DNA from: Aphrocallistes beatrix
Lineage: Eukaryota > Porifera > Hexactinellida > Sceptrulophora > Aphrocallistidae
Length of the DNA: 64,000 nt
Direction of reading: 5' to 3'
NCBI GenBank assembly: GCA_963281255.1
Contig: OY725488.1
Span: forward strand, 7,785,524-7,849,523
Shown: positions 1,717-22,312 of the stretch, piece by piece
Numbering within the stretch: the first letter of the stretch is position 1
How the letters are laid out: the number at the start of each line of letters is the position of its first letter
Translations under genes and position numbers: made by a program
The notes under the pieces: generated by a model
What the model was told of the DNA's origin: nothing
What the model saw: the letters and a program-made list of their open reading frames with translations, nothing else
Databases searched by the model: none

Positions 1717-4700
1717 TTAAATTAGCGTTTCTTCTGATTCTATGTCGATGAGACCGAGACTGCCCTTTTGCACCTCAGTTTTTGCAGGGCTGTATTTATC
1801 ATATCTGTAGTAGGATGAAGCGTATTTCCAAAGAACAACCATAGCAATAATGAGAACAATGGTGACCACTATCAATAAAACTACACCAATTAGAGAGAAG
1901 ATCAATGCGTAATCTCTCGGTTGGAATTCACACAGTGGTCCACTGAACTCATCGAAACATTCGCACAGAAATTCAGAAACGTTGAGGTTAGAGCAGTTCC
2001 CATTCTGACAGGGATTGGAGAAGCATGCGTCAACTTCTTTACAGAAGATACCAACCATTCCTGACCTGCATAAGCAGGTGTACATTCCGTTGTTCAAGTC
2101 ATTACAAGTGGAATCCGGGTGACAACGATTATTATTACAAGCATCTATGAGTTGACATGAGTTTCCCTTGAATCCATTGAAACAGTCGCATTCATATTCA
2201 CTGAATGTGATACGTCGACATGTCCCATTGTTACAGTTCGCCTCATCGCAAGGATTGATCTCAGAACCACAAGTCGTGCCTGTAAATCCTGGATCACAGC
2301 TACAAACGAAGCTATTAATAGCATCTGAACACGACCCATTATCTCCACAAGGATTGCCGGTACAGTTATCTATTTTCGTCTCACAATTCTGACCACTAAA
2401 GTCCGGAAAACATGCACAGTTGTAAAATGTTCCTCCTCCACTGCAATTACCGTTCTGACAAGGAGAACTGTCACAGAGATTCAATTCTGTCTCGCATTGG
2501 TTTCCTGTAAATCCAGGATCACAAGAGCAGTTAAATGCAGCAACCAAATCCGTACAACCTCCCCTGTTATTACAAGGGTCTGGCGTGCAATCATCGATAT
2601 CTTGGTCGCAGTCTTTGCCAGTGTATCCTAGTGTACAAGTGCACGCGTAGTCATATATTAAGTCTTGACACATGCCATTTTTACATGGGGATGGTTCACA
2701 ATCGTCAATATTCACCTGACAAAAAGTACCATCAAATCCATCTTGACAAATGCATCTAAAAGAGTTGACAAGATCCTCGCACATCCCCATGTTAGCGCAC
2801 TGTACGTTAACGCAATCGTCAATGTCAACGCTACAGTTAAATCCCGTGTAACCAGCTGTACAGCGACAATTATAACTACCAACCAAATTATCACATGGTG
2901 CGCTATTCATACAAGGATTAAACATCTGGCACTCGTCTACATCTTGTGAGCAATCGAAACCTGTGAACCCTATTGTACATTCACATGCATAACTTCCTGG
3001 CGAATTAGTACAGATTGCCCCATTCAGACAAGATGTGTTCACGTTACACTCATCGACATCTTGTGAGCAATCGAGACCCGTGAATCCTGTTGTACATTCA
3101 CATGCATAGCTTCCTGGCGAATTAGTACAGTTTGCCCCATTCAGACAAGACGTGTTCACGTTACACTCATCGACATCTTGTGAGCAATCGAAACCTGAGA
3201 ACCCTATTGTACATTCACAGGTATAACTTCCTGGCGAATTAGTACAGTTTGCTCCATTCAGACAAGATGTGTTCACGTTACACTCATCGACATCTTGTGA
3301 GCAATCGAGACCCGTGAATCCTATTGTACATTCACAGGCATAACTTCCTGGCGAATTAGTACAGTTTGCCCCATTCAGGCAAGACGTGTTCACGTTACAC
3401 TCATCGACATCTTGTGAGCAATCAAGACCTGTGTACCCTATTGTACATTCACAGGCATAACCTCCTGGTGAATTAGTACAGTTTGCCCCATTCAAACAAG
3501 ATGTGTTCACGTTACACTCGTCTACATCTTGTGAGCAATCGAAACCTGTGAACCCTATTGTACATTCACAGGCATAGCTTCCGTACGAATTAGTACAGTT
3601 TGCCCCATTCAGGCAAGATGTGTTCACGTTACATTCATCCACATCTTGTGAACAGTTCTGTCCCATGTAGTTAGATGGACAGGTACACACATAGCTACCT
3701 TCTGTGTTAGTACAGTCGGCTTGATTTGCACAAGGAACTTCAAAACATTCATTGATGTCGGTGCTACAATTCTGGTCAGTATATCCTGCAGAACAAACAC
3801 ATTGGTAACTCCCGTGCGTGTCTATACACGAACTGCTTCCATTGACAAAACAAGGCTGTGATTCAGTACATTCGTCGATATTCATGTTGCATAGAGTCCC
3901 AGTGTAACCAGCGTGACAGCTACACTCAAATTCACTGATATTCGTCTTGTAACAAGTTCCGTTGATACAGGGAGAAGATTCACATGGATCGATAAGAGTT
4001 AGACACTCGACTCCAGTAAATGGAGCTGTACATTCACATGTGAAACCGTTTATTTCATCCTGACAAGTACCGTTATTCTTACAAGGATTAGGGTTGCATT
4101 CATCGATGTTGGTTTCACAATTAACTCCTCTGAACCCAGGCTTACATACGCAAAAGCGAGTAACGGTGTCTCCTTTTATTAATCTACATGAACCGTTATT
4201 TTCGCAAGGGTTAGCTTCACAAAGTGTCAGAGAACAAGTGGTACCAGTGAAACCTGATTCGCATGTACAGCTAAACCCGTCTAGAGTATCCATACATGAA
4301 CCATTCATACAAGGATTGAGAGCGCATGTCTCAATTTCACACCTATTCCCCTTGAAGCCAGTAGAACAGTTACATTCTGCCCCTGTGATATTCGATAGAA
4401 CGGAGCGAGTGGGGACACAGACACCTCCATTCACACATGAACAGTTGAAACAAACCTCTAGCGAGTCTAGCCTAGCCACACTACAGTTAGTTCCATTGTA
4501 TATGCAGGGGCAGTCACAGGAATACGAGTTTATCCCGTTGACACATGAACCTCCATTTTGACAAGGTTCTGGAATGCAATTATCAGTAACAACATCACAC
4601 CTTTCTCCTTCAAAACCTGGCATGCAGTCACATCTGAATCGAGGACTGAGATTGACACAGGTTCCATTTCCGCTACAAGGGTTGAGCGCACATTCATCTA

Positions 4701-7700
4701 CATCTGATTCACAAAATTCTCCGGTGTAACCAGGGAAACACGAGCAATATGCGGATGAACCGTTTGTGACACAAGTGCCATTGTTACCACACGGATCTCG
4801 AATACATGGATCTATCAAGAACTCACAGAATGTTCCTGTTAATCCCGGTTCGCATGGGAGAGGGCGACCATCATCTTCTGTTACATTGACAGCTATAATG
4901 CTCAGTATAGAGGTATTACTTGCTAAAAGAGGAATGAGATTTTCTTGCAATGTTAGTCCACTTATCCCTCCAACATAGCTGCCTAAGAGGTTAGCAGTAT
5001 AATTATACAGTAGAGAAATAATATGTCATATCAGCATAATAAGATTACCTAAAGAGTTCACGTTCCCAATATCGACTCGTACCACTGTGCTTTGATCAGG
5101 AGAGGAGGGTAGTTGAAGGGAAGCAGAACGAGTGGTGAGGTTACCATCAATACTGAATACAATAGTCTTGTTAAAAAGTAGCCAGCTAATGCGATGCTGT
5201 ATTCCATCCGTCACGTAGAGAGTTGTGCGTAATTCAGTTTCTAGACAAAAGAGTATTCAAGTTCAACAACTAAGCGATAAATTCAATTAATAGATGACCA
5301 ATTTATCTAAATTGAACAAAAAGAAGCAAAAAGAAGCACACGGATGAATACACAATAAATATCCAATTACTCCGTCATTCAAACAGGACATGGAGAATTA
5401 CGAGATAGTAGGTCGTATCGGTGAGGGAGCGCATGGAGTAGTTTTCAAAGCTAAACACATCCAGTCGGGCTACCCCGTAGCACTCAAGAAGATAGCGCTC
5501 CGCAAGCTCGAGGATGGCATTCCTAACAACATCCTGAGAGAGGTGAAGACTCTGATGGCTCTAGAAGAGCACCCAAACATTGTGCACCTGTTCGAGGTGT
5601 TCCCCCATGGGAGCGGGTTCGTGCTGGTATTCGAGTTCATGCTCTCCGACCTGTCTGAAGTGCTGAGGAACCACGGCGTGCTGCTGTCGGAGCCTCAGAT
5701 AAAGTGCTACATGCTGATGCTACTCCAGGGCGTCTCGCACTGCCACAAGCACAACATCATTCACAGGGACCTCAAGCCCGCCAACCTGCTCCTCAGCAGC
5801 TCCGGACACCTCAAGATAGCGGACTTCGGACTTGCGCGTGTGCACTGTCTGTCTGAAGAACGGCCGCACTACAGCCACCAGGTGGCCACGCGATGGTACA
5901 GAGCTCCAGAGCTGCTGTACGGGGCGAGGGTGTATGACGAAGGGGTCGACTTGTGGGCTGTGGGGTGCATATTCGGAGAACTCATCAACAACTCTCCACT
6001 CTTCCCGGGAGAGAATGATATCGACCAGCTCTGCTGTGTCACGAGAATCCTGGGAACGCCGAACGAGAGGGTGTGGCCAGGACTATCAGAACTGCCGGAC
6101 TACAAGAAAATCACATTTCCTGAGCTCCCACCTATCCCGCTGCACGAGATCGTCCCTGATGCTGCCCCCCTCGCTCTGGACCTGCTCGAGAGCTTCCTGG
6201 TGTACGTGTCCAAGAGGAGACTCGCGGCCTATCGGGCCCTCATCCATCCTTACTTATTCTCAGACCCTCTCCCTGTGCACCACTCACAGCTCCCTTCCCC
6301 GAAATCCCAGCCGAAGAGAGACCTCTTCCAGATCTTCAGCAGTACCGAGTTCGACCCTTCCCCGCTGCTCCGCCCCTCCAAGGTGCCCTCCCACACTGTC
6401 GCTCTAGCAACTCCCACTCAGACGAGGAGGGAGCTCCACATCGAACGAGAGAGAGAAGGAGACAGAAAGAAGGCGAAAGATACCGCACAAAAAATGCGAC
6501 AGGAAAGTAAAAAGTAACCTTTACAAATGACATCACTTACTATTACTATTTGTCTCAAGCTTCATATTTAGCTGTCCATCTTCAATAACAAAATAAACTC
6601 GAATGAGATGATTAGAAATAAAATAGTTGGAAGAGAGGAGTACAACATTTGTAAATCGAGTTCGAAACTCGAAACTCCCGCTGAGCACTCCAGTCGATGC
6701 ATTTTCTTGTCGTAACGATAGCTTCACAAAAGAAGTCCGTGAGAACAAGACTGGGATATCTAAACAGGGATAATTCACCAGGTAATGGCATATAACATTA
6801 TGATTAAATAATATGTGTTGAAGTAACCTTGATCACAGCGGGCGCCTGTATAGCCAGCTGAGCAAGCACAGCTGAACTGAGTGTTGTTGATCCTAGTGCA
6901 GATCCCGTTACCATTACACGAGTTTCCCTCGCAGGGATCTATCAAGCTCTCGCACTCTGCCCCCGTAAACTCGGCACTGCAGATACAATCGTATCTCTGT
7001 CCATTAGGTACGCACGTGCCGTTATTCAGACAAGGGGTTGGAGAGCAGGGCAGTATGGTAGGAGGGTTGGTTGTAGGAGTGATCAAAGTCCGACAGAGGG
7101 AGCCTGTGAAATTGGAATTACATCGACACGAAAATGACCCCTGATTGTTGATACATTGGCCACCAGGAGAACAAGGAGAGGATTGGCACTCGTCTAAATC
7201 TTCTTCACACCCAGGACCTGTGAACCCTACAGCACACGAACACGAGTAGGAGCCGAAGCTATTTAAACAGGTCGCGTCGTTGAGACAAGGAGATGGAACT
7301 GCATCGCACTCATTCACGTCTGATTGACACCGGATCCCTGGAGATCAGAATAAGGGAATAATATCTGAATAAGGTTTTAAGTTAGCACACTTACCAGTGA
7401 ACCCATCTCTACATTCACAAGTGAAATTTCCAGTATTGTCCTGTTGACAGGAGGCTCCGTTTTCACAAGGAGAGAGGGTGCAGGGGTTTAGAAACACATC
7501 GCAGAGTCTACCCGTGAAGTTAGTAGCACACTGACACACAAACCCATTCACAACATCCAAACAAGTGGATGCGTTCAAACATGGATTACTCGCACATTCG
7601 TAGATATCAAGTTGGCAATTGATTCCAGTATAGCCGGGATGACACACACAAGTGTAGCTGTTTCTTTCATTCACACATCTCCCATTGATACAGGGAGTTG

Positions 7701-10700
7701 AGGCGCACTCATTCACATCCCTCCCACACGTTAAACCAGTGTAGCCGGAAGGACAAAAGCACTCCAAGCCAGGTTTCCTGTCAACACAACGCCCTCCATT
7801 TTTACAGGTTGATGGAGTACACACGGCAACTTCAGTGCAGTTGATTCCTAAACAATGCAGAGTATTAATATACAATTGAGATTCAACCAACGTTAAATAA
7901 GTACGATTATAACCATGAAGACTATGCAGTATTTATCAAACAGATTAAATGCACTGCTGCTGAACCTAACACAAATGTTCTAAATATGAACAGTTGTGTG
8001 TAAATAGGCAATTGAATAACACAGTTATCTTTGGTAGCGGAATCAGTGAGAATTATCAGTAATGGAGGAACAGGGCACATTTGTTACTTCGAGTCCGTGT
8101 CTTGATCTTTCTGAGCGTCGGTTGCTTCCTGGACAGACGAGAGAGGATTCTGTTTACTCAGAAGGGACTGCAGCTCGGTGTGTAAGGGATCGGACTCTGA
8201 GAGACGGTTATTCCTCAGACACACTCTCAAGAGGCCAGGTTTAAACGGATTTCTAGGCTCCACGGACAACTGCCAGTTAACCGCAGTGATGAGAGAGGAG
8301 ACGCCCTCAAGAGAGATTAGGTTATAGGACAGATTGATACTGAGTAGAGTCATATTGCCGGGAATGAATATCTGCTTCTCTCTCATGGAAACCTTCTCAG
8401 TGAGAGGATTAGCATACTCGACAGCGCCCGACTTGTCAGCTTCCGCCGCTTCTGGCGCCCGCTTAGCCATCTTACTGCCACCTCCTCGCTTCTTCGCGCT
8501 GTCCACTGGCTTCATTCTGCCCTTGTCAATGTTCTTAGCTGACTTCTCATCTCTTTGGATGTTCTTGGAAGAAGCCGCTGCTTTATGGGCTGAGGGTCGT
8601 CCCAGTTTGACGGAGCTCGGTTTGTCTTGGATGGGTGAGGGAGTGGCGCCTTGACTCACGCCAAGCTTGGTCGGACTATCTATCAATTCTCTATTCTGAA
8701 TAGAGTCTAAGGAGGCGAACACCAGCTTTCTGCGCTCCACTATTTCCTCGTGAGTGAGAGCGAACTCACTGAGCAGACACTTAGACATGAAGTGGAGGGT
8801 GCTGTCTGTGACAGAGTTACCCACCAGAGACAAGCAGTGCAGTGTTCTGTTGATTCTCAGTCCACTCACCACGGCGATGGCCTTGCTATCGTCCAGGCTG
8901 TTATTGGACAGGTTGAGAGAGGTCAGCGTCTTGTTGGTGCGCAGAGCAGTGCCTATAGCCGAGCACTGTTCAAGAGTTAGAGCGCAGCCACGCAGTGAGA
9001 TTGTCTCCACCCCAGATCTCTCCTGCAACAGAAGACAGCTGAAGTCCCCTCCAGTGACAGGGTTACCGTTAAGAAGCAATTGCTTGAGCGGGGGAATGCT
9101 AGCAGTGAGCTTAGCAAGTTCCGAAAGAGTAGACTCGGTGAGACCGACATTCCAGAGCGAGAGGGATTGGATAAGCTGACAGAAGGGGAGGCAGGTGGAG
9201 AGGTGGGAGAGAAGTTGAGGTGTGAGTAAGTAACCTTTGAAAGAGAGAGACTTCAGCGTTGACAGATCTTGATCGTCCTCATAGGTTACTTCCAGGCGCG
9301 GAGAGATGTATTTTGTGTTCGGAACTAGCTTGAAAGTGTTATAGCTAGAGCTAGCTATTGGTGCTGACTCCTTTTCGTCGGCACCGCTGTTTGTTTGCGA
9401 AATCTCATCCAGGAACTGAGGTCGTAATGCTACGGGAATTTCGTAAATTCCTTCTTTTCGGCACAGTCGCATAAAATCCTCAGTGAAAACTCCCTTGGGT
9501 ATGGAGGCAGATTCGTCATCATGCTCGTCTGGAATCGGAATCGGGGTTTTGATTGATTTTTCGCCTTTTTTTCGCATATTAATAATATCTTAATTATACG
9601 GAAATAGTAGTAGACAGTGGAGTTTTAAATTAATTTGTGCTGCTTTGGGATACAAACAAAAGAAAGTTAGCATACTACTAATCAAGAGTAAACAAATTTA
9701 TAAATAATTAGCCCCATTCAATGTTTACAGGGCATTTAAGTAGACAATAATTATTAATCATTGATGGATAGGCTCTCAAGCAATTCGTACAAAGTCAGTA
9801 CAACATATTTTTACATCATTTCTAATAAACTACTTCTCGTAAGGAGGAGTTTCGTTGTCAGGATGCTCAGGATCACTCTCTGTGTCAGAACCGTTGTCCA
9901 GATGCGGTTTATGGTATATGCAACAGCATTTGGACTTTTTCTTCCCCATGTGCTCATTATCAATCACCTCTTCAGACCACTTAATCTCCTTTTTAGGCTT
10001 CTTTTTAAGCACAATAACCTGTTTAGGATTTGAAGAAGTGTTGGGAGCCTCAGCTGTCGAGGTCGTAGTAGTGGTGCTCTTCGAGGTTGATGTTTTTGTG
10101 CGGCAAGCCATGTATAACAACAAACTACTATATCAGATTGTAACTCAGCGAAAGTCAATGCTATTCGAGTAAAATACTATAACCCAGGCTTATATATAGA
10201 TACGTATATACCATTGTAGGGCTAGCTAATAGGCGTATATACTTTTGAAGATGTACAGGCCACATTAATTACGCACCTTGATTATTCAGGTGGGGAAGAA
10301 ATACAATATTAATTAATATAACTGTGTGAATAATGTGAATCCTGTACCAATGCTTCCTCCCTTTCTTGCGACCTTGTACCAAACACTTGGATAGCGTGGT
10401 TGGCATATCAAGGTACAGAGCAGTAGTTCATGTATCGTTTAACATTGCAAGTACATGTGAGATTGAGAGTAGATGTACATAAGTCAAAGTACGAGAATAA
10501 CGTAGGTAAGAGCTGTAATAATGTATCATCCAAAAATTATGCTACAATCAAGTCTACAAGTAGTATTTTAAATTGAGCACATCTCCAAACCATCACCATC
10601 TACGTGGACGCAATTCGCAATTCGCCACAATTTATGCACAAACTTAGGCATGATGAGGTTTAGAATTTAAAGTCTTATAGATAAGGTAATTGCGTCATAC

Positions 10701-13700
10701 CATAATGTACCATCGGTAGTGGGCAGTGCTAAAGAGCACAGCCGCTGTTCTGATGGATTTTATAACATCATCACTCTGTTATGATGTCATCATTACGCTC
10801 CATGTACCTGCTGTATTTTTATTCGGTATAAAACTTTTATTTAATAATATATTTCATTGTAGGATAGGCAATCTACGGCTGATTTAGTTTTAAATTATGG
10901 AGAAATGTTTAAAAGTGGCCAATGTAGACTGCAAAATACAACACATCTCGATATTAGGCTGCTGTTAGCTGGAAACATGTTTCAGCTCCACCGCCAACAT
11001 CCATATTTCGCCACCACACACATCGTCATTATTTCAATTTAGTATCACATTATATTTAGGTATTGGGCATTTGCTACTATTGATTTGATTATGCTGTTGG
11101 TATAGCCAGCATTTGTATTTGGCCGAGAATATAAACTTCAATGCATATATTAAGTTTAAATATGGTAAGTTTGATAGTGTTACCAAATAGTAGGAAAATA
11201 ATAATGAAATATCGCCCCATTGATTGTCCTTTTGGACTGAAACAGTTTTTAAAACCAGGAATAATAGCATCACACCGTGACCAATTATGTCCACCCGCGC
11301 CCACCCAGAATTGCCCATACAAAAAGGCCCTAGTTGCGAGAATGGAGTTGAGTACCATAAAAAGTATTAAATTTAGGAATAAAATAGCATATGCAATAAC
11401 CTGTATATCCTAGACCACACGTACAGTTGTAGCTACTAGCTGCAGGGGTACATAATCCGTTGTTCTGACATGGCTGAGGGATACACGGATTGGACACAGA
11501 TTCACAACGAGCACCAGTGAATCCGGCTGCACACTCGCAAGAGAGAGATGAGTTCACGAGGCTGCAATAGCCTCCGTTCTCACAAGAGTCCGCCTGGCAT
11601 GAAACGCATCCCAATTCTAAAAATAGAATCCGAAATAGATTGTGTTCAAGAGCTTACACAGCAAGATGACAGTCAGCACATACCTGTTTGAATTGAGTCT
11701 AGAGGACAGGTGCAGGTGAAGTTACAGACGGAGTTAATGAGTGAGCTGTTACAAGGCGGGTCGCATACAGATTCAGACTGACAGCGAGAACTCGAAATGA
11801 TGCTATTAGTAGAGATAAATCATTCAGATAGACACAATATAAATGTTTTCGAAAACTTGAACTGTGTAATCACACCTTTGATTGGAAGTGATAGAGATGG
11901 TATTTGTGAGAAGGGTCTGATCTAGGTAGAGGAGATTGCTGACGCAACCCCTGCAGGCGGGAAGGGACTCATTTGTGCGATGTCCGAATGTTACTTCATT
12001 TCCAAGAGAGAAAATGGACTCAAGAGAAGACCCTATAAATAGATTTCTGAGAATAATGTGTTGAGAATTTGAGAGAGTGCGACCGTATCAGAGTGGGCGA
12101 GACTAAACCTTTGTATTCTGCAACCTGCTCCCCATCCAGTAGCAGAGATAGGAAGTCACCAGAGCGAATGAGCAGGAGTGTGTGAGAGGTGCCAGTGAAG
12201 TCAGTAACAGCAACAACTGCCCTGTCGATCTGAAGGATCAGTTGCTTCTCTCCCAGGTGGAGCTGGAGGTGAGAGGATGAGACAGGCCCCACCCGGAGTA
12301 GGAGGCAGTTATTCACACTAGAAGATTGTGGCATAATAAGAATTTCTCGATGACCCACAACTTAGTTCAATCAAATTAAAATGGTACGGACACATTAATT
12401 TCAATAATAACTAAACAAACATCGCTCGACAAGTAATAGTGAGATGTTGCGCTATCTACTCTAAGCATTGGCTAGCTCTCGCTTCTGCTTGACCAGCTCC
12501 AGACTCCGCTCCAGTCTGGCACAGACTCGCTCTCTCCCCAGCACGGAGACCAGTTGGTCCATGGTCGGGCCTTTGTAGGCTCCAGACAGAGATAAACGCA
12601 GGAGAGTGAGCAGCTGCTGACAGCTGACACCCAGATCTGGCGCCCATTGGGAGAACTTGATCTCGGCCAGACCTTCGGGCGAGTAGTCGAGCTCTCTGAA
12701 TCGAGTGCACACCCTCTCCACCAGCTCCGTGACGTCAGCGGTGCTGCTGAGGGAGTCGGAGAGGAGCCGGAAAGGCTCCGGACTGGGACTGGTCCAGAAG
12801 TAGCCGTGCTCTCGCGGGATCTCGGCCAGCAGCACGATGCGAGTGGAGAGAGCGTGCAGCACTGACTCAATATACTCTCTGGAACGCAGCTCATCTGGTG
12901 CTGAGTTGTAGTAGGAAGTCTGAGAGAGCAGCTGCTCCAGCTCAGAGGCAAGGACAGGCCGTCTGTTCTCATCTGCGATTATCCGCTCAAGATGAGTCTT
13001 ATTGTACCAGCCGATCTTCCTGAGAGACACCCCGGCGTTACTCGTGTGAATCCTCTTCAAGTCAAACTGCTCTATGAGCTCTTCCCGCGTCTGGAACTCT
13101 TCCTTGTTCTCTGGTTTGTAAGAAATGAGAGATACCGCATTAATCAAAGCATCGGGATGGTAGCCCTCGTCTCTAAAAAATTTAACACTGATGTCTGCAT
13201 TGCGCTTAGAGAGCTTAGTTCTTGAGCTCTCGTCTACCAAGAGAGGGAGGTGTGCGAAGGTGGGAGGCTTCCATCCAAAGAAGGAGTACATCAAGGTGTG
13301 AATAGGAAGAGAAGAAACCCACTCTGCCCCCCTCATCACATGGGAGATCTCCATTAGATGGTCGTCTACCACATTAGCCAGGTGGTATGAAGGAAATCCG
13401 TTTGATTTCATGATGATGACGTCATCTAGGTTTTCGTACTTGAAGCTCATGTTACTGAATACTTGGTCCTGGACCACTTCGTATCCAGTAGTAGGCATCT
13501 TTAGACGCACGACGTGAGGTGATTCTTCAGCGCGCTTCTTAGCACCAGAAGAGTCTAAACTGCGACACGTACATCGATTTATTCTGAGGTAGGTGGACAT
13601 GAAAATATCCTTTTTAGGCGGGCAGAAGCAAGGGTATGCGTGGTCCTCTTGTAGCAGCTGTTCTACGTGTTCCTTATAAATGCCAAGTCGTTGAGACTGG

Positions 13701-16700
13701 AAATAAGGCCCGTGAGGGCCTGGGGTAGACAGATGAGGACCCTCGTCAAAATCTATTCCCAACCAATCCGTGGTAGAAATTAAGTTTTCAAAAGCTCCTT
13801 CTTGGGTGCGAGAGAGGTCGGTGTCTTCTATTCGTAAAATTAATTGTCCTTGATTCTTCTTGGCGTAGAAATAATTGTAGAGAAGAGTGCGTAGCCCACC
13901 GACATGCAACAGTCCAGTGGGACTGGGAGCAAACCGAAGGCGGTGCATGAAAACTAATTATGAACGAGAAAATATACAGTCAATCTAGTGGACTAAAAGT
14001 AAATTCAAATGAGAAAGAATTATAATTTGATAATTTATACCATTTATATAACTACCGTAAATTGGGTGGAAAAACGGAGAGTAAGTTCTTCGCAACTAGC
14101 ACATTTGGAAGTGTAAAATTTGTGGGGCTGCCGCTGGTGGCGGAAACAACAGTGGGTATGCACAGGTGCAGCGCCACTGGTAGGCACACATTTCTAAAAA
14201 TTGCTGTTTTGGAAGAGTCTTTTCACGGTGGATATTTGCAACACAAAAGGCGATAGTTGTCACATTTTTGGACGATTTGTCAATACAATTGAGTTAGTTA
14301 ATAGCAACATTGCTCTATTATCAACCAATTTTCAATTTTCAAGTTTCAAGTGTAGATTTTGAATTAAGTCTGTTCCCTAATTAGCAACTTCGCGCGGTTT
14401 GCTGCAAAGTTTGTGTGTACAAAACCTGAGTTTCTAATAAATGCGAAATCCACTGTACGTTTACTATCATACTGTGTGGAATTTGAGTATACACCACCCT
14501 TGTTGATTGCCACTTGGCATGTTATGTTTATAATCCATTGTTTAGTTTGAAACACACTTTGCAAGAAATGTTAGGATGCAAAAAGGAATGCCGCCTGTGA
14601 GGCTCGAACTCACGACCTTCAGATTATGAGACTGACGCGCTAACCAACTGCGCCAAGGCGGCAGACACAATGAAAAGATTGATTTCTATCAAATTTGAAT
14701 AAGTACATTACAACAACTAACCGTGTCTGTACTTGTCCAGACCAGAGTGAGAAATCAGACACTGGAGAAGAATGTGAATCTTCAAAGGATAGATATGAAT
14801 CATTTTTTTCCAATGTGTATATTTGAGATAAATAGGGCAGTTCAGGACAAGAGCTTTGGGTCATAGAACTCTGTCCTGCAGTCAAAGGTATAGGGATCCG
14901 CTGAAAGAGTAGATCATTGATGCAAAACAAAGCAGAGAACCTTCCATAGGGTACCTGAAATGAAAGATGTACAATTAAATATTAAATAAACAAAATAAAC
15001 AAAATAAACAAATTTTGTATCATAGTTTAGAAAATGCAATACGTATTCGAAATCAACGCCATTGAAAACCCTAGGTTAATTAAGATACTTGTGGCATGTG
15101 CCCTCCTCAGACATTTTCACTCTTTTTATCTTATAATAAATAATCGAAAGCGCTTGTGCGTTAGGTTGAGACTCGAGAGCGCATGTTCTCTGTCCATCAT
15201 TATATAATTTAAATATTTGGGACTGGTAGAAAATGAGCGTAAATTATCTAGCTATAATATTATTAATTATTGTTGTAGCATATAACAAATCTTCACAGGC
15301 TCCATTTTCACAAATGGAGTAATGAAATTGTATCTAGTTAACTACTGTGTCATAACTGCATGTCTTGGACAGGTTGCCATAGAACAGTATTGGCCTTATA
15401 ATAAAAAGTCGAGAGAGCATGCTCGTTAAGTCGAGAGAGCATGCTCGTTAGGTCGAGAGAGCATGCTCGTTATATACTCCATTGGGGTAAGCAGAACTTT
15501 CGTCCCTGGAATTTTTGTCTCATTAGAGACCAAAATAAACGGGCACTAATATGTAAGGAACGGAAATTGAGGCTTTTGGAGTGGAGTATGTTTGAAAAAA
15601 GGGTGAAAATGCATATATTAAAAAGTACAGTGCGCATGTCCATTAGGTACAGTGCGCATGTCCATTAGGTACAGTGCGCATGTCCATTAAGTACAGTGCG
15701 CATGTCCGTTACGTTTCGTATATATGTACATCATTAGGCCCCCTCGGTTGAATTCTCTCCGTCCCGCTTTCTGAACGTACGCAGTGTCACCCTATTTCTG
15801 GGCATATCTAATTTACGGAACGGTTCCGTAATTTCTAAATACTTCAATTTAATTTCTAAATAGTACTTCAGTTTCGGAACGGAATGGACTGAAGGTAACA
15901 TAATTTAAGCAGTACACCCCAACGTTAGTTAATGGAATAATTGCTAAGTAAATCACATGAATATACGTACATAAATATAGAGTATCAGTCTCAAACTGAG
16001 AACATCTATTACAACTCCAATTAAGGTTTTATCCTTCATTTGTGATTCTGTAACTGAAACGCATGCCCCAATATAAAGCCAGTCACGACAAGTGGGCACA
16101 TTGAACCATTGGTTTTCAGGCATCTTACAGTTACAGAATACCTGGATATTTCTTTGAATGTTGATTATTTCACCCCTTCTCCTCTCTTTAATTATAGGGA
16201 ACATGGTAACATTTTCATGTTCTAAACAAACTTGCAAATGTTTCCGATTTAACTTTTGGTTGAAGAGATATTTACTGGGGCTTTTTCCCAAACATAGGGC
16301 CGTTTCATATGCTACTGCAAACGCTCTGCAATCATTTCCTCCTTTGTACATAGTAGACTTGAATTTGCATTTTTACATCTGCAAACGTTGAGTACAAGTT
16401 GTGATACATGAGCACTTCAAGATGCTTTGTTCAGATTGTAGAAATTGTCAACCAATGGTTATATCCACTATGAAGAACTTGGACGAATTCTCCAGTTTCA
16501 ATTGTGTAATTCCTGCACAACCCAATATCTGGATCTTGAAAGCCTGAACCAACAAACTTCTGCTCAAATTGCTCAGCTAGAATCTTCTGACTCGCATCAA
16601 TCAACCTACTATCGAACCACTGTTAGATCTGGAAGTCTGGATCGCCCAAACGAATTTTGGTAAATCATAAGCTATCTCGTGTACAGGGTGGGGCATAAGT

Positions 16701-19700
16701 TCTGTCCCCAGCATAATTGGGTATATTTTTCCTCGACTCANNNNNNNNNNNNNNNNNNNNNNNNNNNNNNNNNNNNNNNNNNNNNNNNNNNNNNNNNNNN
16801 NNNNNNNNNNNNNNNNNNNNNNNNNNNNNNNNNNNNNNNNNNNNNNNNNNNNNNNNNNNNNNNNNNNNNNNNNNNNNNNNNNNNNNNNNNNNNNNNNNNN
16901 NNNNNNNNNNNNNNNNNNNNNNNNNNNNNNNNNNNNNNNNCTTGGGAAAGCAGTGGGCCCATATTCTCGATTTTAGCTGCGTCCCGCGACACATTTTTTC
17001 TTGGTACCCTTTGTCTTGCAAATTGTAGTTCAAGGTTCTACTTGTAGATTGGATAAGCTCTCACTAAATCGTTCAGAATATTATATCTACAATATCTATC
17101 CATTATAATAACTGAGATTATGTGAGTCGAGGAAAAATATACCCAATTATGCTGGGGACAGAACTTATGCCCCACCCTGTACACGAGATAGCTTATGATT
17201 TACCAAAATTCGTTTGGGCGATCCAGACTTCCAGATCTAACAGTGGTTCGATAGTAGGTTGATTGATGCGAGTCAGAAGATTCTAGCTGAGCAATTTGAG
17301 CAGAAGTTTGTTGGTTCAGGCTTTCAAGATCCAGATATTGGGTTGTGCAGGAATTACACAATTGAAACTGGAGAATTCGTCCAAGTTCTTCATAGTGGAT
17401 ATAACCATTGGTTGACAATTTCTACAATCTGAACAAAGCATCTTGAAGTGCTCATGTATCACAACTTGTACTCAACGTTTGCAGATGTAAAAATGCAAAT
17501 TCAAGTCTACTATGTACAAAGGAGGAAATGATTGCAGAGCGTTTGCAGTAGCATATGAAACGGCCCTATGTTTGGGAAAAAGCCCCAGTAAATATCTCTT
17601 CAACCAAAAGTTAAATCGGAAACATTTGCAAGTTTGTTTAGAACATGAAAATGTTACCATGTTCCCTATAATTAAAGAGAGGAGAAGGGGTGAAATAATC
17701 AACATTCAAAGAAATATCCAGGTATTCTGTAACTGTAAGATGCCTGAAAACCAATGGTTCAATGTGCCCACTTGTCGTGACTGGCTTTATATTGGGGCAT
17801 GCGTTTCAGTTACAGAATCACAAATGAAGGATAAAACCTTAATTGGAGTTGTAATAGATGTTCTCAGTTTGAGACTGATACTCTATATTTATGTACGTAT
17901 ATTCATGTGATTTACTTAGCAATTATTCCATTAACTAACGTTGGGGTGTACTGCTTAAATTATGTTACCTTCAGTCCATTCCGTTCCGAAACTGAAGTAC
18001 TATTTAGAAATTAAATTGAAGTATTTAGAAATTACGGAACCGTTCCGTAAATTAGATATGCCCAGAAATAGGGTGACACTGCGTACGTTCAGAAAGCGGG
18101 ACGGAGAGAATTCAACCGAGGGGGCCTAATGATGTACATATATACGAAACGTAACGGACATGCGCACTGTACTTAATGGACATGCGCACTGTACCTAATG
18201 GACATGCGCACTGTACTTTTTAATGGACATGCGCACTGTACCTAACGGACATGCGCACTGTACCTAATGGACATGCGCACTGTACTTTTTAATACCTCGA
18301 AAATGAGGCATTTTGATTGAGAAATCATTAGGTGCGAAAAGGGCATTTCAGGGGACGAAAGTTCCGCCATTCCTCCATTGGTTACCAGCATCATACCTAC
18401 TTATAATAGTAGGAAGTTATTACATAATATATGAAACTTCTCGAACTAATTTAAACCAATTTTACATCAGGATTTCTGGACTTAACGAGCATGCTCTCTC
18501 GACTTTTCAATACCTAGTATTGGCAGTTCATTGTGTTATGACATGTATTGTGATCTGGAATTAATACTAGATATGTATGCATAAATCAATAAATCACTAA
18601 ATCACTATAAATCACTAATAATCTCGGGAATCATGTCCACAAAACGCAAGCGATTTAGGGCTGTATGCTTTCATAAAATACTTATATACAAATAAGCAAC
18701 ATTGGCTGAAATTAGTAAAAGTATACCCAGTCTGCCGCCACCTCTCAATGCGGTCACCATCATGACATGCCACAAATGACCTCGATACCCACACCTACCA
18801 ACCGTCCACGGATTTACTCATTTGTCCAGGACTTTTTTAGTCGGACTATTGTACAGCTTCATTATAAATAATTTATTGGTCACATATTAAGTATATAATT
18901 CTACAGTTTGGCCTGTGAGATTATAGGATTTGTTTATTCTTGTGCCAATGGAATATGGACAAAGAGTGGACGAAAAGTGGACAAAAATTCTGATAAGGAA
19001 TTTAATGGTTTCTAATGCGTTCTATTCCCAGTTTAGTCATTAAGCTATAATATTGACAGACCATCGCAATTACTTATTTTTCCCTCATGGTCAACGAACT
19101 CAATGGCATTTCATAAATTTTGTCTCATACATATATTTTCACTAAATGTTGGACTTCTATGGGGGTAGATCTAGAAAAATATGGAGATTTGGTCAGTTTT
19201 GCTTCGCATACATATTGCACACTGATTTAGAATAAGTTAAAACGAATGAAAGTGAAAGCAAAATCTAAATTAATCAGAATACCTGAATGTCAGTGTTCGT
19301 TATGTCTCCTATCGTCAATGTCCCCATTCCGATCTGTAGAGTGGCTTCCCCATCTTGTTGAACCGTGATTACATTCCCATCTAAGCTCACTGAAAGAATT
19401 CCAGTCCTCAGGCCATTCACTTCGATACGAGAGGACTGAGCAGGAGTGAGTGAAGGAGATATCGCATGTAGGGTATGAGTTGTGTTGCGCAATCGTAGTA
19501 CCAGTCTGCTGTTATTCAATCCCAAGGAGACGAGAGAGTGAGAGGAATTATAGGTTAAAATACTGCCTTGGGGATTGTAGAACAGGAGAGTGAATGAGAG
19601 CGAGTCATTTAGTTCTAACTTGTCCAATTTAAGAGATGCGCCATCTGGTACAAACAAAGCCTTTGAAAAATGTAACAACAGCAGTGAGGTAGCTGGAGAT

Positions 19701-19803
19701 ATAATTTTTTTAAATTAAATAAGCAACCATTTCACAATCTATTCAGGTATAAACTGGAAGCTAACAACTTACCGAACACCCAAAATCCAATATGTTTAGA
19801 CAT
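1717..19803 (-). CDS. Crumbs-like transmembrane polarity protein (12 exons, 2,000 aa)
   Basis: Exons read on the minus strand: 19803-19773, 19692-19283, 14954-14722, 12317-12109, 12032-11876, 11790-11684, 11616-11401, 7847-7395, 7337-6828, 6759-6541, 5240-5049, 4982-1717. Every junction has GT/AG and compatible phase, and the total is 6,003 nt including the stop. Order: signal peptide split over exons 1-2 (hydrophobic core LLLLHF); a laminin-G-like domain (exons 2-3); a second LamG (exons 3-5, ending [11 protein letters not shown]); about 11 EGF repeats; a third LamG (exons 10-12, [10 protein letters not shown]); about 25 EGF repeats, many calcium-binding (DVDEC); a transmembrane helix; a 36-residue tail. 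The tail has Y-S-P-x-x-x-E, spaced as in the Crumbs FERM-binding motif, and ends ETLI, close to the Crumbs ERLI PDZ ligand that binds Pals1/Par6. The family role is apical identity and Hippo input. LamG domains lead and the longest EGF array abuts the membrane, unlike fly Crumbs. Several introns hold other genes. Confidence 0.85.
2940..3660 (-). repeat. Six near-identical 117 bp units encoding cbEGF repeats in the Crumbs-like gene
   Basis: Six consecutive 39-residue calcium-binding EGF modules, each starting [15 protein letters not shown], differ at only a few residues while the neighbouring EGF modules are strongly diverged. The DNA is also nearly identical with a 117 bp period. This indicates recent in-frame unit duplication or gene conversion inside the last exon. 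Confidence 0.9.
5390..6517 (+). CDS. CDK20: Cyclin-dependent kinase 20 (cell-cycle-related kinase)
   Basis: A complete single-exon kinase of 375 residues, very close to vertebrate CDK20/CCRK throughout the catalytic domain. Visible are the glycine loop GEGAHGVV (11-18), Lys33, HRDLKPAN (125-132), DFG (145-147), and an activation segment [12 protein letters not shown] with the T-loop Thr at 167. [12 protein letters not shown] and [20 protein letters not shown] are CDK20-like. CDK20 phosphorylates ICK/MAK-type kinases, controls ciliary length and Hedgehog output, and has been described as a CDK-activating kinase. Beyond about residue 300 the protein carries a longer, basic, charged tail not seen in the roughly 346-residue human protein. 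The gene lies on the opposite strand inside the Crumbs-like intron between 5240 and 6541. Its stop is only 24 bp from the neighbouring exon, and about 150 bp upstream of its start would hold the promoter. Confidence 0.93.
   Translation: MENYEIVGRIGEGAHGVVFKAKHIQSGYPVALKKIALRKLEDGIPNNILREVKTLMALEEHPNIVHLFEVFPHGSGFVLVFEFMLSDLSEVLRNHGVLLSEPQIKCYMLMLLQGVSHCHKHNIIHRDLKPANLLLSSSGHLKIADFGLARVHCLSEERPHYSHQVATRWYRAPELLYGARVYDEGVDLWAVGCIFGELINNSPLFPGENDIDQLCCVTRILGTPNERVWPGLSELPDYKKITFPELPPIPLHEIVPDAAPLALDLLESFLVYVSKRRLAAYRALIHPYLFSDPLPVHHSQLPSPKSQPKRDLFQIFSSTEFDPSPLLRPSKVPSHTVALATPTQTRRELHIEREREGDRKKAKDTAQKMRQESKK
8084..9577 (-). CDS. Leucine-rich repeat protein, LRRC71-like
   Basis: A 497-residue single-exon ORF. 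Residues about 105-285 form ribonuclease-inhibitor-type leucine-rich repeats ([49 protein letters not shown]). A Lys/Ser/Pro-rich linker (about 300-390) follows, then a further LRR block starting [20 protein letters not shown]. This order, LRRs then a basic linker then a second LRR block introduced by a PGN motif, is how I remember LRRC71, a protein of ciliated and sperm cells; I assign it by architecture. There is no signal peptide or membrane segment. The gene sits in the 3.6 kb Crumbs-like intron (11400-7848), on the same strand as the host and about 250 bp downstream of the PPP1R11 gene. Another axonemal RNI-type LRR protein is the main alternative. Confidence 0.6.
   Translation of the reverse strand: MRKKGEKSIKTPIPIPDEHDDESASIPKGVFTEDFMRLCRKEGIYEIPVALRPQFLDEISQTNSGADEKESAPIASSSYNTFKLVPNTKYISPRLEVTYEDDQDLSTLKSLSFKGYLLTPQLLSHLSTCLPFCQLIQSLSLWNVGLTESTLSELAKLTASIPPLKQLLLNGNPVTGGDFSCLLLQERSGVETISLRGCALTLEQCSAIGTALRTNKTLTSLNLSNNSLDDSKAIAVVSGLRINRTLHCLSLVGNSVTDSTLHFMSKCLLSEFALTHEEIVERRKLVFASLDSIQNRELIDSPTKLGVSQGATPSPIQDKPSSVKLGRPSAHKAAASSKNIQRDEKSAKNIDKGRMKPVDSAKKRGGGSKMAKRAPEAAEADKSGAVEYANPLTEKVSMREKQIFIPGNMTLLSINLSYNLISLEGVSSLITAVNWQLSVEPRNPFKPGLLRVCLRNNRLSESDPLHTELQSLLSKQNPLSSVQEATDAQKDQDTDSK
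9830..10111 (-). CDS. PPP1R11: Protein phosphatase 1 inhibitor 3 (PPP1R11 family)
   Basis: A 93-residue protein starting at the ATG at 10111. The core [21 protein letters not shown] is nearly the same as the conserved heart of vertebrate inhibitor-3 ([20 protein letters not shown]). It is preceded by KEIKW, which fits an RVxF-type PP1-docking motif (KVEW in human). The N-terminus is Ser/Thr-rich and the C-terminus acidic, so the protein is probably largely disordered. The family binds and inhibits PP1 catalytic subunit and is mainly nuclear/nucleolar. At 93 residues it is shorter than the 126-residue human protein because the Pro-rich C-terminus is missing. It is a complete single-exon gene nested in a Crumbs-like intron upstream of the LRR gene, same strand. 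Confidence 0.9.
10112..11400. other. Remainder of the 3.6 kb Crumbs-like intron: nothing recognised
   Basis: AT-rich intronic DNA upstream of the PPP1R11 start. It must contain that gene's promoter, but I see no coding similarity, RNA gene or clear repeat. Only short unrelated ORFs are present. Confidence 0.5.
12461..13948 (-). CDS. EARS2: Glutamyl-tRNA synthetase, mitochondrial type
   Basis: A 495-residue class I glutamyl-tRNA synthetase of the bacterial/mitochondrial type. It starts [18 protein letters not shown] with the HIGH-type motif (HVGG, residues 15-18), contains the Rossmann-fold segment ILRIEDTD, and has the KMSKS-type loop TKLSKRN. It charges tRNA-Glu (and in many organelles also tRNA-Gln) with glutamate. 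The C-terminal anticodon-binding region is complete and ends in a charged helix. The ATG lies directly on the catalytic domain, so no mitochondrial presequence is visible, and an in-frame stop lies a few codons upstream. A pyrimidine-rich tract ending in TTAG just before the ATG could be a splice acceptor for an unseen leader exon. The gene lies in the Crumbs-like intron between exons at 14722 and 12317, on the host strand. Confidence 0.93.
   Translation of the reverse strand: MHRLRFAPSPTGLLHVGGLRTLLYNYFYAKKNQGQLILRIEDTDLSRTQEGAFENLISTTDWLGIDFDEGPHLSTPGPHGPYFQSQRLGIYKEHVEQLLQEDHAYPCFCPPKKDIFMSTYLRINRCTCRSLDSSGAKKRAEESPHVVRLKMPTTGYEVVQDQVFSNMSFKYENLDDVIIMKSNGFPSYHLANVVDDHLMEISHVMRGAEWVSSLPIHTLMYSFFGWKPPTFAHLPLLVDESSRTKLSKRNADISVKFFRDEGYHPDALINAVSLISYKPENKEEFQTREELIEQFDLKRIHTSNAGVSLRKIGWYNKTHLERIIADENRRPVLASELEQLLSQTSYYNSAPDELRSREYIESVLHALSTRIVLLAEIPREHGYFWTSPSPEPFRLLSDSLSSTADVTELVERVCTRFRELDYSPEGLAEIKFSQWAPDLGVSCQQLLTLLRLSLSGAYKGPTMDQLVSVLGRERVCARLERSLELVKQKRELANA
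13949..14588. other. Spacer between EARS2 and tRNA-Met: no gene recognised
   Basis: Intronic DNA upstream of EARS2. It should hold the EARS2 promoter and possibly a leader exon with the missing targeting peptide. I could not identify one by eye. Confidence 0.4.
14580..14584 (-). terminator. Pol III terminator of tRNA-Met
   Basis: Five T residues on the minus strand, five bases after the tRNA 3' end, as expected for RNA polymerase III termination. Confidence 0.7.
14589..14662 (-). tRNA. tRNA-Met (anticodon CAT), elongator
   Basis: A 74-nt cloverleaf on the minus strand. The acceptor arm is GCCGCCT/AGGCGGC plus discriminator A. The D arm is GCGCAGTTGGTTAGCGC (A box). The anticodon loop holds CAT between GTCAGTCT and AATCTGAAG, and the T arm is CGTGAGTTCGAGCCTCACA (B box GTTCGAGCC). 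The sequence closely matches eukaryotic elongator tRNA-Met. It has no intron and no encoded CCA. It lies in a Crumbs-like intron, 60 bp downstream (in host transcription order) of the exon ending at 14722. Confidence 0.95.
16060..16655 (-). pseudogene. Ulp1-like (C48) peptidase fragment, left arm copy
   Basis: Mirror image of the right-arm copy at 17208-17803, with the same predicted residues. See that entry for motifs. The two copies read outward from the centre of the foldback element. The paired translations are identical, so the arms duplicated recently, are kept alike by conversion, or reflect assembly. Confidence 0.55.
16741..16940. other. Assembly gap (200 N)
   Basis: Exactly 200 N, a usual placeholder length, in the loop of the inverted repeat where assembly is difficult. 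Its true size is unknown. Confidence 1.
17208..17803 (+). pseudogene. Ulp1-like (C48) peptidase fragment with PHD-like tail, right arm copy
   Basis: One frame reads [34 protein letters not shown]; the next frame (17512 on) reads [34 protein letters not shown] and [17 protein letters not shown]. Together they resemble the transposon-borne Ulp1 proteases seen in many invertebrates, with a catalytic His in the H-W pair, a Cys in G-x-D-C-G-x-F (here the following Gly is Arg), and a C-terminal PHD-like Cys cluster. In-frame stops and a shift between the His and Cys blocks make it a decayed gene. Ulp1-type peptidases cleave SUMO; carriage by DNA transposons such as plant Kaonashi MULEs is established. 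No transposase is visible here. Confidence 0.55.
18573..19282. other. Crumbs-like intron 2, proximal part: nothing but short AAATCACTA repeats
   Basis: About 700 bp of AT-rich intron. A short run of four or five AAATCAcTa-like units lies near 18585-18625. No coding or RNA feature was recognised. Confidence 0.5.
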
Positions 19804-21912: not shown

Positions 21913-22218
21913 CTTGCGGTGGACAACAATCGTACGGTGGATAGTAATCGTACGATGGATAGTAATCGTACGGTGGATAGTAATCGTACGGTGGATAGTA
22001 ATCGTACGATGGATAGTAATCGTACGATGGATAGTAATCGTACGATGGATAGTAATCGTACGATGGATAGTAATCGTACGATGGATAGTAATCGTACGAT
22101 GGATAGTAATCGTACGATGGATAGTAATCGTACGGTGGATAGTAATCGTACGGTGGATAGTAATCGTACGATGGATAGTAATCGTACGGTGGATAGTAAT
22201 CGTACGGTGGATAGTAAT
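21913..22218. repeat. 18 bp minisatellite, 16 good units plus one degenerate
   Basis: Unit CGTACGRTGGATAGTAAT repeats from 21931 to 22218 without indels; the R position alternates between G and A. An older unit lies at 21913-21930. Because 18 is a multiple of three, several frames stay open (DSNRTM on plus, YDYYPS on minus). It ends 95 bp before the ATG of the gene at 22313, so it lies in that gene's promoter or 5' UTR. Confidence 0.95.
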
Positions 22219-22312
22219 AGTATGAAACAGGACTGCTATAAATACTCGCTAGCAAAGTCATGCTCATATAACAACCTCTGCACAAATCGTACAATTCAAA
22301 TAAATTCCGGAG

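Follow-up and report, generated by a model that had tools for sequence, protein, structure and literature searches.

A glass-sponge-type Crumbs gene in Aphrocallistes beatrix, with a divergent tail that Par6 rather than Pals1 may still read

The window, that is, the whole stretch of 64,000 nucleotides of Aphrocallistes beatrix DNA analysed here, contains a Crumbs gene. The gene is real, and we conclude with good confidence that its product is a Crumbs of the glass-sponge type; the predicted tail has exactly the form published for hexactinellids (ETLI, XxxxXxYxPX). As a tentative proposal, held with less than even confidence, the tail of Crumbs may have diverged in glass sponges together with the Pals1 PDZ domain, with Par6 still reading Crumbs and Pals1 no longer doing so.

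Rebuilt from the sequence, the gene comprises 12 exons on the minus strand, from 19803 to 1717, and the phase is continuous (the signal peptide and the membrane span were assigned by eye):

19773..19803, minus strand: exon 1, with the start codon, the beginning of the signal peptide (by eye) and a GT donor
19283..19692, minus strand: exon 2, remaining signal peptide and most of LamG1
14722..14954, minus strand: exon 3, last part of LamG1 and first part of LamG2 (by eye)
12109..12317, minus strand: exon 4, LamG2
11876..12032, minus strand: exon 5, end of LamG2
11684..11802, minus strand: exon 6, linker and first EGF
11401..11616, minus strand: exon 7, EGF domains
7395..7847, minus strand: exon 8, EGF domains; the EGF begun in exon 7 is completed by the first cysteine here
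6828..7337, minus strand: exon 9, EGF domains
6541..6759, minus strand: exon 10, first half of LamG3
5049..5240, minus strand: exon 11, LamG3
1717..4982, minus strand: exon 12 (3,266 nt), end of LamG3, 25 EGF, membrane span and the tail ending in ETLI

The tail is 36 residues long (<40), carries the Y-S-P-x-x-x-E spacing and ends in ETLI, with threonine at position -2. The length, the spacing and the ETLI end had been noticed in the sequence-only reading, which called the tail canonical; the word was too strong, as ETLI stands in place of ERLI and only two of the five residues of the FERM motif are retained. ETLI departs from the canonical PDZ-binding motif E/D-R/K-L/I-I/L, and the five places of the FERM motif RxxxGxYxPS are occupied by Y, D, Y, P and A, so that only Y and P are kept. 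In the alignment, Tyr10 and Glu16 (fly numbering), both of which were mutated in fly work (PMC3564977), are in place, and the residue at the place of fly Arg7 is not arginine. The aPKC sites (TxGTYx) are absent from this tail, as is reported for Trichoplax and for all sponge species studied by Belahbib et al. (2018, PMC5968619). According to the same paper, ETLI replaces ERLI in hexactinellids and is unique to them, and their FERM motif is reduced to XxxxXxYxPX. The Crumbs-type tails published there from sponges and Trichoplax include some that are better conserved than the one described here. The earlier claim that both tail motifs predate bilaterians stands as far as their presence outside bilaterians is concerned, which was already known from sponges and Trichoplax (PMC5968619), and falls for this tail, which is divergent and not canonical. 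The gene should not be read as support for canonical motifs in the ancestor; measured against the published tails, it has the divergent form among sponges.

In human Pals1, Arg282 holds Glu(-3) of ERLI, while Asn315 and Phe318 contact Arg(-2) (Ivanova 2015, PMC4356366). Par6, with Arg199, Leu231 and Asp232, is reported to tolerate other residues at the place of Arg(-2), ESLV being among its ligands, and the signature of Arg, Asp/Asn and Leu/Val is described within the human PDZome only for Par6 and MPP1, 3 and 5 (PMC4356366). Nine PDZ loci of the A. beatrix genome, defined as those matching the PALS1 PDZ query at E <= 0.001 with one domain each and not equal to all PDZ domains of the genome, were aligned. 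The full Crumbs-reading signature was present in one of the nine, Par6, with L014 ambiguous because of a gap. Arginine occupied the Arg282 place in L010, L014, L015 and L016, but there the other residues were missing or gapped (R, gap, D in L014). Par6, located on C15, scored 157.8 bits to fly Par6, and its reading residues Arg, Leu and Asp were intact.

Two genes matched human PALS1 over PDZ, SH3 and GUK, C10 (165 bits) and C4 (124 bits), and with the SH3-GUK part alone C10 again came first of 11 matches. The guanylate-kinase part of C4 scored higher with CASK (63.2 bits) than with p55 (47.5) or PALS1 (43.9), which is one of the reasons why C10 was preferred as Pals1; being the most similar by scores rather than by a tree, it is our Pals1 candidate. 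At the places of R282, V314, N315 and F318 of Pals1, the C10 MAGUK (L011) has Gly, Thr, Glu and Met. The C4 MAGUK has Arg, Leu (or Val), Glu and Gln, its helix places being made uncertain by a gap. Four further MAGUK-like loci, on C9 (L043, within a 120-aa frame), C12 (L045), C14 (L044) and C7 (L046), were set aside, as their likeness to the PALS1 PDZ-SH3-GUK query was confined to guanylate-kinase stretches; the one on C12 looks like the enzyme guanylate kinase. A switch to class I through a histidine in the partner PDZ was also considered and rejected: the helix B1 place holds Leu in Par6, Thr in C10 and Leu or Val in C4. Histidine occupies this place in two of the nine PDZ loci, L013 (C9) and L017 (C6), and C4 has two histidines just before the alignment gap at helix B1, where their place is uncertain.

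In epithelial cells Crumbs is a marker of the top side, and an apical function would be expected of this Crumbs as well. The protein would consist of an EGF/LamG stalk outside the cell, one span and a short tail docking polarity scaffolds. The E-T-L-I terminus fits the Par6 PDZ ligand rule E-X-phi-phi, Thr stands in place of Arg(-2), which is read by Pals1 and not needed by Par6, and the link to FERM proteins would be weakened. Given that Arg(-2) is absent, that C10 is without the reading residues and that Par6 is intact, Crumbs may anchor through Par6 rather than through Pals1, which on these predicted proteins we regard as possible, short of probable.

Belahbib et al. raised the possibility of a defective complex in hexactinellids and proposed that ETLI permits binding by class I PDZ domains (PMC5968619). 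The partner split, with Par6 as the putative remaining partner, is the part that would go beyond the literature examined: by title or abstract start, no study of the Par6 or Pals1 reading residues in glass sponges was found, and searching the literature for a peptide ligand of Par6 returned no papers. If true, it would be a natural split of two roles that flies and mammals combine in one four-residue motif. The tissue of glass sponges is syncytial and lacks a basement membrane, yet polarity genes are reported to have been kept (PMC10280926); if the tail lost the part read by Pals1 and kept the part read by Par6, this would show which part of the Crumbs machinery is dispensable without ordinary epithelia.

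A rather unlikely alternative, yet the one that fares best, is that this Crumbs works in the ordinary way, ETLI being a neutral change that leaves binding by Pals1 as well as by Par6 in place. It would be in keeping with the retained C-terminal Ile and Glu and with the Arg282 equivalent of the C4 MAGUK. In human Pals1, loss of the C-terminal Ile abolished binding, while Ala at the place of the Arg only weakened it, from 9.2 to 52-55 uM (PMC4356366). On the other hand, C10 has no equivalents of Arg282, Val314, Asn315 and Phe318, and in the published glass sponges Pals1 is described without its first L27 and PatJ without its L27 (PMC5968619). The C10 frame contains one L27 (22.6 bits, cut-off 22), which agrees with the first L27 having been lost in glass sponges, as published, and is no test of that loss. 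Between these observations, the split of partners with Par6 retained is the reading that we prefer.

The gene model itself was weighed against a division into two or more genes. The coding sequence measures 6,015 nt including the stop, is free of internal stops and is preceded by an in-frame TGA immediately upstream of the ATG at 19803. The twelve exons joined in phase and the product of about 2,000 residues proposed earlier could both be rebuilt: with the exon 6 acceptor AATAG/CATC the product has 2,004 aa, and with an alternative acceptor 12 nt downstream (TTCGAG/TTCT) it has 2,000 aa. The GT-AG form is possible for all 11 introns; at the exon 5/6 boundary a one-base ambiguity leaves the coding sequence unchanged, the GT-AG form being 12032-11876 / 11802-11684. 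Introns are 57-80 nt long, save introns 2 (4,328 nt), 3 (2,404 nt), 7 (3,553 nt) and 10 (1,300 nt). Nested in introns 3, 7 and 10 are four protein genes, each in a single frame, and one tRNA:

14588..14663, minus strand: tRNA-Met (CAT), intron 3
12461..13948, minus strand: glutamyl-tRNA synthetase, bacterial/mitochondrial-type, intron 3 (TIGR00464, 383 bits, cut-off 289.95)
9830..10111, minus strand: PPI_Ypi1 protein phosphatase inhibitor family, intron 7, the sole match in the genome search
8084..9577, minus strand: leucine-rich-repeat protein, intron 7 (LRR_6, 25.8 bits, cut-off 23.4)
5390..6517, plus strand: CDK-like protein kinase, intron 10, on the opposite strand

The glutamyl-tRNA synthetase was the only one of two matches in the genome search that exceeded the cut-off. 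Together with the PPI_Ypi1 gene, the leucine-rich-repeat gene and the tRNA-Met, it shares the orientation of the host gene (8084-14663). Intron 2 contains a palindrome:

15647..18216, no strand assigned: palindrome with 1,094-nt arms (15647-16740 and 17123-18216) that are 100% complementary

Its centre consists of 200 N (16741-16940) and 182 further bases, and it represents either the palindrome of a mobile element or a fold-back that arose in the assembly at the gap. Exons 1 and 2 are joined to the remaining exons across these 200 N.

With such neighbours, the locus could be read as separate genes with housekeeping genes between them, the N-terminal one for a secreted LamG/EGF protein and another for a membrane EGF protein. 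This is very improbable, even though three of the four interposed protein genes lie on the Crumbs strand, the 200 N leave an unread stretch between exons 1-2 and the rest, and continuity across intron 3 depends on phase together with the beginning of LamG2 as placed by eye in exon 3, the Pfam LamG2 match beginning only in exon 4. Every exon joins in phase, and both intron 7 and intron 10 cut through a domain: intron 7 splits one EGF, with cysteines 1-5 in exon 7 and cysteine 6 in exon 8, and the Pfam match to LamG3, which covers residues 811-925 (exons 10-12), is interrupted by intron 10. As single folded domains need the exons on either side of these two gene-bearing introns, the split that the sequence-only reading had named as its refutation is disfavoured. 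Nested genes are also common in another glass sponge, as 2,432 of them (12.4%) and 12,409 single-exon transcripts are reported for A. vastus (PMC10282587), and those found here are not unusual for glass-sponge genomes. A single Crumbs gene with nested genes is the model used in what follows.

Outside the gene, the minus strand carries the start of a dynamin-like gene at 1057-1221 (26.7 bits, cut-off 27), some 500 bases beyond the Crumbs stop. An 18-bp minisatellite at 21928-22222 (16.4 copies, 97%) leaves several frames open on each strand. The right 28 kb, to the window end, are filled by a 71-bp satellite array (36206-63992; about 400 copies, 82% matches).

The predicted Crumbs is a type I protein with an EGF and laminin-G ectodomain and one hydrophobic span (residues 1941-1968, by eye). 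From the N-terminus it consists of a signal peptide, two LamG, 11 EGF, a third LamG, 25 EGF, the membrane span and the 36-residue tail; EGFs were counted by their cysteine pattern, 11 before LamG3 and 25 after it, 36 in all. The domain order given in the sequence-only reading was hence borne out, with LamG1 as its weak member. LamG2 (25.2 bits) and LamG3 (28.1 bits) exceeded the Pfam cut-off of 22.9, while LamG1 remained below it (15.4 bits, E 0.027). A genome-wide six-frame LamG search, run exon by exon, returned 16 matches, none of them within this window. An AlphaFold2 model of exon 2 alone (mean pLDDT 54.3) was uninformative on LamG1, as was Foldseek with this model (0 of 82 matches at E <= 0.001). 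A PDB search with the two N-terminal LamG gave seven matches at chance level (best E 0.65).

The membrane-proximal part of the ectodomain includes a tandem array:

2930..3651, minus strand: 117-bp units in exon 12, 6.2 copies with 91% matches, encoding six near-identical EGF domains

The units differ pairwise at 4-14 of 117 bases, and this six-EGF stretch reflects recent growth, or copies kept alike by conversion. The fly Crumbs ectodomain is built of EGF and LamG domains as well, with most EGFs first, whereas here two LamG come first and the 25 EGFs adjoin the membrane. Part of this difference is probably recent, because the six near-identical EGFs of the array belong to the 25 next to the membrane. 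That the ectodomain was still being shuffled when the tail motifs already existed, as had been suggested, goes further than one species can show.

Likeness to the fly tail was assessed by shuffling. An equal or better score was reached by 142 of 20,000 full shuffles, and by 2,354 of 20,000 when ETLI was held fixed, so that the FERM part alone was not significant. Y.P...E combined with a Crumbs-like C-terminus arose in 2 of 200,000 shuffles, for a motif chosen afterwards. With the span and tail as query, a PDB search gave 10 matches at chance level (best E 0.19) and did not retrieve the fly Crumbs tail. The same query found one real Crumbs tail in the genome (E 7.9e-34), the other two of three matches having E values of 0.31 and 0.40; sponges are reported to have one Crumbs copy (PMC5968619). 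Convergence of an unrelated EGF/LamG receptor on a C-terminus like that of Crumbs would agree with the FERM-binding part that alone stays within the range of shuffled tails, with PDB matches that include no Crumbs chain and with a domain order unlike that of the fly, and is nevertheless highly improbable, as the type of ectodomain, the tail length, the positions of Y and P and the ETLI match the published glass-sponge Crumbs (PMC5968619) and the genome tail search gave no better Crumbs.

The genome as a whole was also compared with those of glass sponges. It measures 100.5 Mb in 28 contigs; published glass-sponge genomes were assembled to 61 and 80 Mb, and 141 Mb were estimated for a third. 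A search of the genome for the Wnt family, run without a positive control, gave no matches, a Frizzled search gave three, two of them strong, and for Wntless there was one sub-threshold match (21 bits, cut-off 28.3). For Oopsacas, wnt, wntless, dishevelled and frizzled A are reported as missing and frizzled B as retained (PMC10280926). The three Frizzled matches and the sub-threshold Wntless match count against the likeness to O. minuta, which is reported with FzdB and without FzdA; the lack of a Wnt match together with the presence of Frizzled is compatible with a glass sponge.

Among known systems, the closest likeness is to the hexactinellid Crumbs of Oopsacas minuta (Fig. 5a of PMC5968619), which has the same ETLI, a FERM motif reduced to Y and P, an EGF/laminin-type ectodomain and one copy, the likeness leaving domain order out. 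Drosophila Crumbs, the tail of which is contained in PDB 4wsi and 4yl8, has the same single span, a tail of <40 residues, Y-S-P-x-x-x-E and a C-terminal E-x-L-I. It differs in ending with ERLI rather than the ETLI found here, and R, G and S of its FERM motif as well as its aPKC sites are absent from the A. beatrix tail. Par6 PDZ ligands are of the E-X-phi-phi type (ESLV, PDB 1rzx), a rule to which ETLI conforms, and Arg, Leu and Asp of Par6 are unchanged in A. beatrix, where Par6 may bind the Crumbs tail.
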